This document shows positions 28,005-31,656 of a DNA stretch of 64,000 nt, piece by piece. A program made the translations under genes and the position numbers. Location: contig JAHHHO010000025.1 in assembly GCA_019359315.1 (NCBI GenBank), positions 1-64,000 on the forward strand. Reading direction: 5' to 3'. Below the pieces are notes generated by a model, which made no database searches, was not told where the DNA came from, and saw only the letters and a list, made by a program, of their open reading frames with translations. Source of the DNA: Myxacorys californica WJT36-NPBG1 (lineage in GTDB: Bacteria; Cyanobacteriota; Cyanobacteriia; Leptolyngbyales; Leptolyngbyaceae). How positions within the stretch are numbered: position 1 is the stretch's first letter; each line of letters begins with the position of its first letter.

Positions 28005-29375
28005 CTAGACCACTCGGTTTTGGCGAATACATTCTGCGTACCAGCGATAACTAGATTTTGGGATTCGCTGCTGCGTTTTGTAGTCGATGTAGGTGATGCC
28101 AAATCGTCGATCGTAGCCGTAAGACCATTCAAAATTATCCATCAAGCTCCAGACAAAGTATCCTTTGATCGGATAGTGCTCGACAGCAGCCCGATGAACA
28201 CTTTGGAGATAGTGACGTAAATACAAAATGCGATCGAGATCAATGATTTCACCTGAAGGTTTTACTTGGTCTTGAGCCGCACAACCATTTTCAGTGATGT
28301 AAATTGGTAAATCCGGGCGATTCATTGTTTCGCTAACGTGACGAATCCCCCAATACAAGCTTTCTGGAACAAGCTGTAGCCAAGGCATATTCAGTGCAGG
28401 ATAAGCTTTTGGAAAGTCGAGCCATTCACAGCCTTGCCAGTTATCAGCAGCGCGAATGTAGGTTCCTGTATAGATATTGAAACCTAAAAAATCAAGGGGT
28501 TGATGAATAGTTTTCAGGTCATCATCTTGAACATCCGGTGCATTGCTTCCAAGTTGTTCTAACAACGCTGGATGGTATGCTCCCGTTAATGCTGGATAAA
28601 TCATTCCACCATTGCCACAGTGGTACGGAAAGGCTCGCTTTGCCGCTTCGATATCCTCTGCTGATTCGGTGAGCGGAACCGTGACTCCGAAGTTATCAAC
28701 CAAAGCAATTTGCGCCTTCGTCGAGGCTGCTCGGATTGCTTGACATCCTAATCCATGTGCCAACAGCGCGTGATGCGATGTTTGCCAAACGTCTTTTTGA
28801 GATTTCACACGAGTTCCGGGCGCATGTTGAGGCGTTTTGCCCACGGCATATCCCATGTGTGTAAAACAAGATATTTCGTTGAGTGTCATCCAGTTTGTAA
28901 TACGATCGCCCAATCGACTCACGACTGCTGTTGCATAGTCTGCGAAGTCTTGCGCCATTTCTCGACTGCGCCAAGAGCCGTATTTTTGCTCCAACGCCGC
29001 CGGGCTATCCCAATGAAACAGCGTCGCGTAGGGGGTGATGTTATGTTTGAGCAAGCGATCGACCAATCGCCTATAGAAATCAATTCCAGCCTCGTTCACC
29101 TTGCCTCGACCATCGGGAATAATGCGGCACCAAGAGACGCTGAAGCGATAATTCTGGATGCCCAACTCTTTCATCAGCTTGATGTCATCTTCGTAGCGGT
29201 GGTAATGGTCACAGGCGATCGCGCCCGTATGTCCTTTTACCGTCCGTCCGCGAGTCGCGCTAAAGGTATCCCACACACTCGGCTTGCGTCCGTCTGTTTC
29301 AGTGGCTCCTTCAATTTGATAGGCCGCCGTCGCTGCGCCCCACTGGAAGTCTTCTGGAAATTGATAGCTTGTCAT
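28005..29375 (-). CDS. GH1 family beta-glucosidase
   Basis: This 456-residue glycoside hydrolase family 1 enzyme has the N-terminal signature FPEDFQWGAATAAYQIEGA and the acid/base glutamate in TLNEISC (E167). The nucleophile glutamate lies in YITENGC, and the end is WSLMDNFEWSYGYDRRFGI. It would hydrolyse cellobiose or other beta-glucosides in the cytoplasm, as no signal peptide is visible. The ATG at 29375 is preferred because an earlier start at 29429 would run into the small membrane gene upstream, which ends 7 bp away. Confidence 0.95.
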   Translation of the reverse strand: MTSYQFPEDFQWGAATAAYQIEGATETDGRKPSVWDTFSATRGRTVKGHTGAIACDHYHRYEDDIKLMKELGIQNYRFSVSWCRIIPDGRGKVNEAGIDFYRRLVDRLLKHNITPYATLFHWDSPAALEQKYGSWRSREMAQDFADYATAVVSRLGDRITNWMTLNEISCFTHMGYAVGKTPQHAPGTRVKSQKDVWQTSHHALLAHGLGCQAIRAASTKAQIALVDNFGVTVPLTESAEDIEAAKRAFPYHCGNGGMIYPALTGAYHPALLEQLGSNAPDVQDDDLKTIHQPLDFLGFNIYTGTYIRAADNWQGCEWLDFPKAYPALNMPWLQLVPESLYWGIRHVSETMNRPDLPIYITENGCAAQDQVKPSGEIIDLDRILYLRHYLQSVHRAAVEHYPIKGYFVWSLMDNFEWSYGYDRRFGITYIDYKTQQRIPKSSYRWYAECIRQNRVV

Positions 29376-29382
29376 AGCGAAT

Positions 29383-29571
29383 CTAGTTTTTACGGTGAGC
29401 GCGGGTCTGAATGAGGAGCGCGATCGCAATTACAATCGACGGTGACAGTACAGCAATTAATACGGTAGTCAACGTTGGTGCAACGTTAAGAAACGGAGCA
29501 AGGTATTTGATAGCGATCGAGAGTGCTAACGAAGGAAGCACCACTTTGAGAATAAAAATAAACGTATCCAT
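29383..29571 (-). CDS. Small two-helix membrane protein upstream of the GH1 gene
   Basis: This 62-residue protein from the ATG at 29571 has two hydrophobic helices (FIFILKVVLPSLALSIAI and TTVLIAVLSPSIVIAIALLI) and a basic C-terminus (TRAHRKN). It ends 7 bp before the GH1 gene on the same strand, so the two may be cotranscribed. Small proteins of this look are common in cyanobacteria; no function is known to me. Confidence 0.55.
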   Translation of the reverse strand: MDTFIFILKVVLPSLALSIAIKYLAPFLNVAPTLTTVLIAVLSPSIVIAIALLIQTRAHRKN

Positions 29572-29710
29572 TTTGATTTTGGTGAACCATCTCGAACCTA
29601 ACCGCAAATCTCTGAAGAATTGCTAATTCCTGGAAGAGCCACTTATCTACTCTCTACTGTTCATACTATTTGTTCATACTATTTTTCACCCGTTGTTTTT
29701 CGATATAGAC

Positions 29711-30143
29711 AGGACTTACGCACTGGTGACATTAAGACACCGACCTTAAACGACACGAACCTAAACTTAATCATAGAAGCAACCTTCCTTACCTTAGAAG
29801 CAAGGTTCGTTACGCCAGAAGCAAGGTTCGTTACCCTAGAAGTAGGATTCCTTTTGGCAGAAGGAAGGTTCCTTACGTCGAAAGCGATCTTCCTTACCCT
29901 AGAAGCAACCCTCCTTACGCCAAAAGCAACCTTCCTTACCTTAGAAGCAAGGTTCGTTACGCCAGAAGCAACCCTCCTTACGCCAAAAGCAACCTTCCTT
30001 ACCCTAGAAGCAACCCTCCTTACGCCAAAAGCAACCTTCCTTACCTTAGAAGCAAGGTTCGTTACGCCAAAAGCAACCTTCCTTATCACAGCGACTCTGT
30101 TTATAAAGACACTGCAACATCTGCAATGATTTGCGTAAGTCCT
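29711..30143. mobile_element. MITE-like element bounded by 12-bp terminal inverted repeats
   Basis: AGGACTTACGCA (29711-29722) is repeated in perfect inverse orientation at 30132-30143, enclosing 433 bp. The interior is mainly a 21-bp tandem array and encodes no transposase. ACTTACGC-type ends are familiar to me from cyanobacterial insertion sequences, so this looks like a non-autonomous derivative. A near copy of the left end (CAGGGCTTACGCACTGG) lies alone at 39151. No convincing target-site duplication can be fixed; a TAG or TA on each side is possible. Confidence 0.55.
29776..30090. repeat. 21-bp tandem repeat array, 15 units
   Basis: Fifteen consecutive 21-bp units run from 29776 to 30090, each starting GAAG or AAAG followed by CAACCTTCC, CAACCCTCC or CAAGGTTCG and ending ACGCCA, ACCTTA or ACCCTA. 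The variants recur in blocks (units 7-9 match units 12-14), showing that growth occurred by multi-unit duplication. No stop codon interrupts the array on either strand, giving heptads such as LEARFVT and TPEATLL on plus and KVRKVAF, GVTNLAS on minus. No evidence supports translation. Confidence 0.9.
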
Positions 30144-30331
30144 AGTAGAGCTTGGATCAAGCGATCTTTCAGAGTTTGGAAAAGCGAATCACTTGCCCAT
30201 GAACAACACTGAGCGCCATCAGAATCATAATCATGGTTCAATTCACTCCATCCCTCACGCTCCAGCTTCCAAACGCGATAGGCGCAACCCACTACCGCAG
30301 TTTTATGAGCCCGCACGACTCTTAAAAACAT
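30101..30331 (-). CDS. Small hypothetical protein whose end lies inside the MITE-like element
   Basis: This reverse-strand frame of 76 codons starts at the ATG at 30331 (MFLRVVRAHKTAVVGCAYRV). Its composition is protein-like (WKLEREGWSELNHDYDSDGA). The last dozen codons read through the right inverted repeat of the element (30132-30143), so the native C-terminus was probably replaced by insertion. No family is recognised. It may be a truncated pseudogene. Confidence 0.4.
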   Translation of the reverse strand: MFLRVVRAHKTAVVGCAYRVWKLEREGWSELNHDYDSDGAQCCSWASDSLFQTLKDRLIQALLGLTQIIADVAVSL

Positions 30332-30394
30332 TTTTTCAGGTAGAATCTGAAATTCCGTAAAAACACAGATGAGGTTTAGGTATCTGTCTGCAAC

Positions 30395-30475
30395 TATAGT
30401 TACATAAGTCATTTCATTAGAGAGTATCAACTTTCACAGCTACCAGCCCAGTAGTGTCGCGCTACTGGGTTTTTT
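30395..30475 (+). ncRNA. Candidate small RNA ending in a terminator
   Basis: A TATAGT hexamer at 30395-30400 could serve as a -10 box. A transcript beginning about 30407 would run roughly 70 nt and end at the strong hairpin and T-run at 30475. No plus-strand gene lies upstream to explain this terminator. No matching known RNA family is recognised and no good -35 box is visible. Confidence 0.3.
30445..30475 (+). terminator. Rho-independent terminator
   Basis: CCCAGTAG (30447-30454) pairs with CTACTGGG (30462-30469) around a 7-base loop and is followed by TTTTTT (30470-30475). It is a textbook intrinsic terminator in the plus direction. Confidence 0.85.
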
Positions 30476-30825
30476 ACTGGGCTTGGGCAGCTTCAGAAAT
30501 GATACGGAATAGAGAGTGCAGCCAAGACTGAGAGACAATTGCCTTGCTTAAGAATTTAGGACTTAGGCCGCGATTCTTCGGAGTTTGGCAGAGCCGATCG
30601 CGCGTTGGCAGCAAATTTTGTTGGGTACTTTGGAAGAGGCTTCGCCTACGAATGTAGCGGATGCCTGCGGCAACACTCTGCAAGGAATAGATTAGTTACC
30701 ACTATCTGTTTTTTGCAGAGGAGTGCTGGAAGCTACATCCGTTTCATCTACTACCCAATCTGCTGCCTGTTCTGAAATAGCTAACTGCACTTGCAATGAG
30801 CGCAGAGTACAACTCTGAAAAACGG

Positions 30826-31656
30826 CTACACCAAGCTCTGAAGAATTGCGTCATTCACCACATCTGGAGCTTCTGCCATGATCAAATGTCCTACGTCTGA
30901 CACCGTGATGTGAGTACTATTTGGGTGCTGATGTTGCAGCCGCGCTAACCATTCATGCCCCATCACAGGCGGAAACATCGGATCGCTGCTGCCTGTGATA
31001 ATCGTAATCGGGCAATCAAATTCGTGATGGCGTCCGTCGTAGCCCCAAAATGCTTCGATCGCTTCGTAGGGGTGAGGATCAGTCGGGAGATCATTAGACC
31101 GTTCAGGCTCATCGTCATCACTACTAAGAGCAGCAATTAACACGTGTTGCTGCCACCGATGGAGATGATGTCCAGCAACTCGCTCTGCGAAGCCCCAAAG
31201 GAGCGCAAAAAATTTGATCGCGGGAATTTCCCACCACGGCGTTAAATCGTGCGTGCCGCCTGCGATCGCAATGATGGCTCGCGTCGGATGGCGTTTTGCC
31301 CACTCCAAACCAATCGGAACGCCATAGCTATGACAACACAAAATTGGATTTTCAATCTGAAAGTGTCTCAGCAACCGCGTTAAATCGCGTCGATGTCGCC
31401 CCACCGAATAGCGCTGATAGCGCCCAGAGTCCCCATGTCCCGCCAAATCATAGGCAAGAACCGCCTGCCCAGACGCCCGAAAAAATTTCCATTGCAGCCG
31501 CCAATTGTAGCGACTGCCAAGCCCGCCATGAACAAAGACGATCGCGGGCAATCGTCCCGGCGCATAAGCCACTTGCAGGGCAACGCTCCGCAGTTGAATC
31601 TGCGTTCCTGCGAGTGTGATTGGCTCCTCTATCGCGGAAGAATACGGCATAAGCAT
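30826..31656 (-). CDS. Alpha/beta hydrolase
   Basis: This 276-residue alpha/beta-fold hydrolase has the oxyanion-loop motif VFVHGGLGSRYNW, strand LAYDLAGHGDSG, nucleophile elbow CCHSYGVP (serine in C-H-S-Y-G) and a probable catalytic histidine in VGHLIMAEAP. The acid is likely in TGSSDPMFPP. The substrate is unknown. The frame is open to 31758, but the upstream part looks unlike protein, so the ATG at 31656 (MLMPYSSA) is used. Confidence 0.87.
   Translation of the reverse strand: MLMPYSSAIEEPITLAGTQIQLRSVALQVAYAPGRLPAIVFVHGGLGSRYNWRLQWKFFRASGQAVLAYDLAGHGDSGRYQRYSVGRHRRDLTRLLRHFQIENPILCCHSYGVPIGLEWAKRHPTRAIIAIAGGTHDLTPWWEIPAIKFFALLWGFAERVAGHHLHRWQQHVLIAALSSDDDEPERSNDLPTDPHPYEAIEAFWGYDGRHHEFDCPITIITGSSDPMFPPVMGHEWLARLQHQHPNSTHITVSDVGHLIMAEAPDVVNDAILQSLV

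Follow-up and report, generated by a model that had tools for sequence, protein, structure and literature searches.

A MITE family with an internal 21-bp minisatellite and IS701-type ends in the cyanobacterium Myxacorys

Introduction

What kind of element is a tandem array of short repeats that is closed on both sides by perfect inverted ends, and how would it move and change? The question is raised by a 433-bp locus in Myxacorys californica WJT36-NPBG1. It lies in a stretch of 64,000 nucleotides of contig JAHHHO010000025.1, which is the whole DNA that was analysed and is called the window below. An original prediction, made from the letters of the window, described the locus as a transposon-like element of fifteen 21-bp repeats with 12-bp inverted ends and without a transposase. 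It read block duplication of units as active expansion, saw a heptad phase in the array and could match the combination to no named element. It also suggested where to look for support: further pairs of the ends in the genome, empty sites in related strains and a parent IS with the same ends.

The locus is a MITE. It has terminal inverted repeats (TIRs), is short and lacks a transposase, and its family has dispersed copies, target duplications and, for one copy, an empty site in a related genome.

The Element in the Window

The TIRs are complementary at 12 of 12 positions, just as foreseen, and enclose two arms and the array (Table 1). Exact matches to AGGACTTACGCA in the 64-kb window are just the two element ends, and with up to one mismatch there are three in all, against 0.22 expected from shuffles. 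The left arm matches model R1 with 63.7 bits (E = 8.0e-17, one genome) and the right arm matches model R2 with 55.1 bits, each model having been built from seven sequences with the window copy among them. The right arm is without 10 bp that are present in its relatives in alignment A5. Are the arms simply degenerate units of the array? This idea was rejected because their lag-21 identity is weak and inconsistent (0.18–0.42).

Table 1. Coordinates of the MITE in the window and of its parts.
Feature	Position	Strand	Remarks
Whole MITE	29711..30143	+	433 bp; 12-bp inverted ends, further copies elsewhere
MITE with the 13th end base counted	29710-30144		left base C, right base A in place of G
Left terminal inverted repeat AGGACTTACGCA	29711..29722	+	
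Right terminal inverted repeat	30132..30143	-	reads TGCGTAAGTCCT on the + strand
Left arm common to the family, TIR included	29711..29767	+	model R1, alignments A1 and A3
Array, fifteen 21-bp units, TRF consensus AGAAGCAACCTTCCTTACGCC	29775..30085	+	TRF and segmentation
Exact 76-bp block, copy one	29889..29964	+	recurs 105 bp downstream
Exact 76-bp block, copy two	29994..30069	+	
Right arm common to the family, TIR included	30087..30143	+	model R2, alignment A5
Probable target-site duplication, left half ATAGA	29705..29709		
Probable target-site duplication, right half GTAGA	30145..30149		4 of 5 the same as left

The array takes up 311 of the 433 bp. TRF reports 14.8 copies of a 21-bp period, together with a period of 105 bp, and our own segmentation gives 15 units, so that the fifteen repeats and the nearly pure tandem array hold good. 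Units 2–15 are each exactly 21 bp long and unit 1 has one extra base, at the border with the arm. The lag-21 identity of the element is 0.728, compared with at most 0.341 in 1000 letter shuffles and at most 0.417 over 1261 other pieces of the window. Some stretches are repeated exactly: 76 bp at lag 105, 48 bp at lag 147 and 40 bp at lags 63 and 42. The 76-bp repeat bears out the claim of block duplication. However, it supports recent expansion only, and the word “active” has to be dropped.

As also predicted, there is no sign of a transposase within the window copy, since the two long frames running through the array stay below every Pfam curated cut-off.

Several features of the neighbourhood deserve mention in their own right. 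About 128 bp beside the MITE (30352-30479) have a counterpart of 88% identity in M. almedinensis (G001 C7) and, for the most part, one of 82% identity in genome G008. It holds a terminator-like hairpin (30445-30471, then T) and has no Rfam match; it is perhaps a conserved small RNA or leader. A shorter segment of about 35 bp (30567-30602) is another dispersed short repeat, found in at least nine places in M. almedinensis at 86–94% identity. On the other side lies what looks by eye like a glycoside hydrolase gene (28005-29429). It has DNA matches in genomes G002, G003, G004, G008 and G009, and no match to it was found between the flanking sequences in M. almedinensis.

A Family of Copies in Myxacorys

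The search for partner copies across the genome was rewarded. Nine copies share the common arms, seven in the host genome with the window included, hence six further ones, and two in M. almedinensis. What varies is the number of units between the arms, which runs from 1 to 18. Host copy C126 has 18 units, the window copy (C1) 15, C60, whose left end is lost, about 14, and C17 13. Copies C105 and C76 have about five each, the two M. almedinensis copies (C16 and C44) about three each, and C15, at 150 bp, a single unit. TRF detects the 21-bp period in eight of the nine, the exception being the one-unit C15; its scores are 111 to 436 for seven Myxacorys copies and 74 for C105. Two right arms of the family lack 9–10 bp.

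How widely is the family spread? The left-arm model was run on 388 genomes of the class, a set drawn from a larger group, with search filters that lose weak matches; it has matches in only two, both of them Myxacorys. M. almedinensis is the sole genome of the same genus among the 97 compared. In GTDB contigs, one exact arm pattern, which misses diverged copies and does not take in the window copy itself, found M. almedinensis and one Chitinophagaceae match. The latter was rejected as a family member and taken as chance: it is without a 21-bp array and covers only positions 3-26 of the arm model. Plasmid and phage collections gave no blastn match to the element at E 1e-5.

The copies are intergenic as far as ORFs alone can tell, and small ORFs that consist of element sequence overlap several of them. 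C15 lies where a 225-aa frame might extend in the 5' direction, the likely start of that frame (MDFEII) coming just past the element, and the edge of C44 is overlapped by a 93-aa frame.

Target Duplications and Empty Sites

If each end is taken to be 13 bp long (C AGG... / ...CCT G), flanking 5-mers agree at 25 of 35 positions in the seven copies that have both ends. Re-paired flanks agree at 10.2 positions on average and at 20 at most, and none of 1854 derangements reaches 25. The duplication is perfect in C17 and C76, 4 of 5 in the window copy and M. almedinensis C16, 3 of 5 in C126 and C15 and 1 of 5 in C105. The 5-bp offset was the best of 25 tried in this first set. Neighbouring offsets with an equal sum scored 23 and 20, which means that the duplication length could be 4 to 6.

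A second set, with the offset fixed beforehand, consisted of 16 elements of other genomes that have the same ends (see below). Here the flanks agree at 58 of 80 positions, five elements being perfect, while shuffles average 25.2 with a maximum of 45 in 10,000. The 13 short elements among them have a perfect duplication in four cases and one of at least 4 of 5 in nine. The three IS-sized elements score 5, 3 and 1 of 5, so that only one is perfect, and an IS-sized element on host contig C121 scores 0 of 5. IS701 elements prefer YTAR-type targets with 4-bp duplications.

Empty sites in relatives had been suggested as a further check, and one was found, for C17. The comparison took in C17, the window locus and M. 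almedinensis C16; the C76 site could not be placed. The C17 site is unoccupied in M. almedinensis (G001 C22), where the gap has one CTAA, in contrast to ACTAA on both sides when filled. The gene upstream has its stop codon at this CTAA. On the right of the insertion, alignment is poor over the first 40–60 bp and good beyond. Conversely, the M. almedinensis C16 copy is absent from the matching host gap, about 100 bp of which have diverged. At the window locus both neighbouring sequences are present in M. almedinensis and the element is absent, but the gap has diverged too much to give an empty site exact to the base.

The Ends and the IS701 Link

The ends themselves are far more widespread than the arms. 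The host genome has 19 exact copies of the 12-mer AGGACTTACGCA and none of its reversed control. Among the 388 genomes from the class, 221 contain the 12-mer. Many have just one or two matches, a level that the control also reaches (0 to 5 per strand), but in other genomes the count runs to tens or hundreds, with a maximum of 296 in G260. This genome and four more cyanobacterial genomes (G338, G064, G208 and G238) contain the motif more than 190 times each, against 0–3 for the control. These counts represent a very large IS701/MITE group.

What do these ends enclose? Sixteen inverted AGGACTTACGCA pairs were opened in other genomes, three of them IS-sized and 13 short. The IS-sized elements (1137, 1206 and 1140 bp) all encode a protein above the cut-off of NCBIfam NF049921 (IS701 family), although the frame of the 1206-bp element spans 217 codons and is possibly broken. 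The proposed search for a parent-type IS with identical ends has thus led to IS701: the 12-bp ends are the same in all three, and one has a perfect 5-bp duplication at an equal offset. These elements differ from the MITE in that they carry a transposase, and by eye only the ends are common to both. The MITE arms are, also by eye, unlike the IS ends past the TIR, and so the MITE is not a simple internal deletion of the IS elements that were read.

Other sequences fit the same type. An NF049921 gene of M. almedinensis has an exact GGACTTACGCA 7 bp past its 3' end. In genome G018 a one-mismatch motif overlaps the 3' end of such a gene and an exact one lies about 1 kb upstream. G018 also holds an IS701-type element (L075 554-2275) with a transposase gene that is apparently split, by eye, by a further insertion of some 0.9 kb. 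The C121 element of the host is 1056 bp long, with both 12-bp ends and a broken DDE transposase. Four host contigs stop 119–124 bp inside a near-identical sequence that bears a AGGACTTACGCA end, and a 70% relative of this sequence, on C11, has MTFTKLNYCQ after the end. To the eye this resembles MSINYLYYCQ, the IS701 N-terminus of L098. An intact IS701 element was not read whole in the host genome, C121 being broken and the multi-copy candidates running off the ends of their contigs.

The 13 short elements of other cyanobacteria (72–382 bp) are like the Myxacorys MITE in their ends and duplication offset. However, none has a comparable array, the best TRF score being 57 for 1.9 copies of 24 bp. 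Other short elements were seen as well. A second type in the host genome (L049 3063-3228, on C59) is 166 bp long, with one mismatch per end and a different interior, and the end regions of L020, L005 and L016 also belong with it. Motifs like ATCAAATCYGTTGC adjoin several other ends (by eye).

The ends do, then, occur elsewhere in the genome and the array does have partner copies, given the copies, IS ends, duplications and unoccupied site that were found. The transposon-like, MITE-like nature of the locus, which had been proposed from the window, stands on the same four kinds of evidence.

Evolution of the Array

The arrays appear to have a common ancestry, but also a history of their own in each copy. 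Over the four long arrays, unit differences are 0.233 within arrays compared with 0.272 between them (0 of 1000 permutations). The nearest neighbour of a unit lies strictly in its own array for 40 of 61 units, is tied for 10 and lies in another array for 11, while label shuffles give a mean of 7.2 and a maximum of 20 of 61. The higher-order periods are specific to the copies: 105 bp in the window copy, 42 bp in C126, and 42 and 63 bp in both C17 and C60. This likeness within arrays, together with the copy-specific periods, indicates local duplication after insertion on top of common ancestry. The effect is not universal, and homogenisation of the arrays is uneven among copies. Units of C60 are no more alike inside the array (0.295) than they are to those of C126 (0.262) or C17 (0.285), and those of C1 are hardly more alike inside (0.243) than to C126 (0.248).

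The ends, the copy family, the target duplications, the unoccupied site, an IS type whose ends match and the pattern of unit numbers have all been observed, and in our view they very probably reflect a MITE that is moved in trans by an IS701-type transposase, inserts with a duplication of about 5 bp and carries a minisatellite that grows and shrinks in place. An IS701-type transposase (NF049921) encoded elsewhere in the genome would recognise the ends (C)AGGACTTACGCA and would be the mover of the MITE. Insertion would create a target duplication of about 5 bp. Each inserted copy would then separately gain, lose and partly homogenise its units, giving anything from 1 to 18 of them and higher-order blocks specific to the copy. 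Replication slippage or unequal recombination may be how unit number changes, and the array itself would be neutral cargo.

Alternative Explanations

What if the array is not cargo? It might be selected within the element, either with a two-turn period that keeps the ends in phase on one face of the helix, or with a unit that is a repeated site for the transposase or a nucleoid protein. The array would then be a working part, and an element with any length of it would be mobilised equally. The 21-bp period is indeed kept in all eight array-bearing copies even though units of different arrays diverge in sequence by up to 44%, and unit positions 10–12 and 19 are almost invariant in the four long arrays. 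Several observations do not fit. The AAGCAA core of the unit is not kept in the arrays of C76, C105 and M. almedinensis. Two right arms lack 9–10 bp, and some units are 20 or 22 bp long. The TIR-like heptamer CTTACGC was considered as the repeated transposase site and rejected, as it occurs inside just two of the nine copies. Moreover, common ancestry explains a constant period equally well. We regard a selected array as unlikely. If it were true, the family would be a self-adjusting non-autonomous transposon whose minisatellite is selected for its period rather than its sequence.

Less likely again is an array that makes functional structured RNA or hairpin DNA, acting as a regulator, terminator or transcript stabiliser. 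Some copies do fold better than shuffles, namely both strands of the window copy (z of -6.2 on minus and -3.8 on plus), the minus strand of C126 (-3.7) and the plus strand of C105 (-3.3), with 60 shuffles for each of 18 copy strands. The minus strand of the right arm also has a terminator-like site (30128-30110). However, z is between 0 and -1.7 for 11 of the 18 strands and between -1.9 and -2.5 for three more; with only four below -3, a common RNA fold is not supported. A potential GAAG/CTTC stem in the unit is not kept either, because position 17 varies freely opposite an almost invariant G. Rfam gives no match up to E 1 in 29500-31000, and the segment 29600-30500 has no sigma-70-like site and two terminator-like sites, compared with about 1.0 of each in shuffles.

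The length of the unit suggests another reading, that it encodes a heptapeptide-repeat protein and that the inverted ends are incidental. The window array is crossed by frames of 136 and 169 aa on the two strands, and one minus-strand frame is open across the whole element. Stop-free stretches reach 119 codons in C126, 118 in C17 and 100 in C60, and C15, C76 and M. almedinensis C44 have one stop-free frame each. However, a 21-bp unit that is free of stops leaves frames open by itself, and the two window frames belong to no Pfam family at the curated cut-off. Nor is the reading frame kept between copies. In C126, C17 and C60, three of the four long arrays, units of 20 or 22 bp shift the frame and none of the six frames is open throughout, with 2 to 9 stops each. 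The heptad phase of the original prediction therefore looks meaningless: 21 is divisible by 3, yet the frame is shifted by 20- and 22-bp units. A coding array is accordingly very improbable. Chance or artefact, meaning an ordinary intergenic minisatellite between inverted repeats or a misassembly in a draft of 128 contigs, can practically be set aside, since the array is enclosed by the same arms elsewhere in the genome and in a second species, partner copies refute it, and the longest exact array repeat (76 bp) is shorter than the repeat of about 120 bp at which the assembly contigs break.

Relation to Known Elements

Is a MITE with a minisatellite inside it a new kind of element? The original prediction had no name for it, but such MITEs have been named before. 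The nearest parallel is BrickBuilt of Porphyromonas gingivalis (Klein et al. 2015, PMC4596501). In the available text of that paper, BrickBuilt is described as an intergenic MITE in which a TIR-bearing leader and tail, of up to 285 and 318 nt, surround a tandem minisatellite. Its 23-nt units are imperfect and copy-specific and number 1 to 22.8 per copy. Its TIRs resemble those of an IS in its genome, and its BLAST matches are said there to come from P. gingivalis alone, apart from homologues in P. gulae. The Myxacorys MITE is like it in having fixed TIR-bearing arms and a variable minisatellite (1 to 18 units). It differs in its unit of 21 bp and in an IS701-type TIR, AGGACTTACGCA, where BrickBuilt has IS5-type TIRs, a comparison made by the printed TIRs only. 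The putative target duplications of BrickBuilt are reported as unequal in length, compared with about 5 bp in Myxacorys.

Two other elements have a related layout. MITE464/PgRS, also of P. gingivalis, is described in the same text (PMC4596501) as a MITE with internal 41-nt tandem repeats, and differs from the Myxacorys family in unit length, ends and phylum. BOX of Streptococcus pneumoniae has fixed boxA and boxC ends and a variable number of boxB modules (PMC3049150). Like the Myxacorys MITE it is a small interspersed repeat with fixed ends and tandem modules, although the modules and the host phylum differ. Its length variation rises with mean size, and effects on expression are reported (PMC3049150, as far as its available text goes).

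Among cyanobacteria, the MITEs Nezha and ISSoc2 are known (from the available part of a review, PMC10969869). No cyanobacterial minisatellite MITE was among the matches listed in a search of open-access literature, a scope that mostly leaves aside subscription journals, and the matches listed for the TIR letters look unrelated by title. Since MITEs with an internal minisatellite have been described, the element is of a known design and not a new kind, and differs in its unit and its IS701-type ends. The Myxacorys family is a cyanobacterial example of this design, with a unit of its own.

Significance

The Myxacorys family is a cyanobacterial case of a minisatellite inside a MITE, a design printed for Porphyromonas and, as BOX, for the pneumococcus. 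It also indicates a large group of cyanobacterial elements with AGGACTTACGCA ends, both IS701-type elements and short satellites, of which one lineage bears an array. Its copies could be used as variable-number markers of Myxacorys strains. They also offer a simple system in which to ask whether the period of an array matters for transposition.
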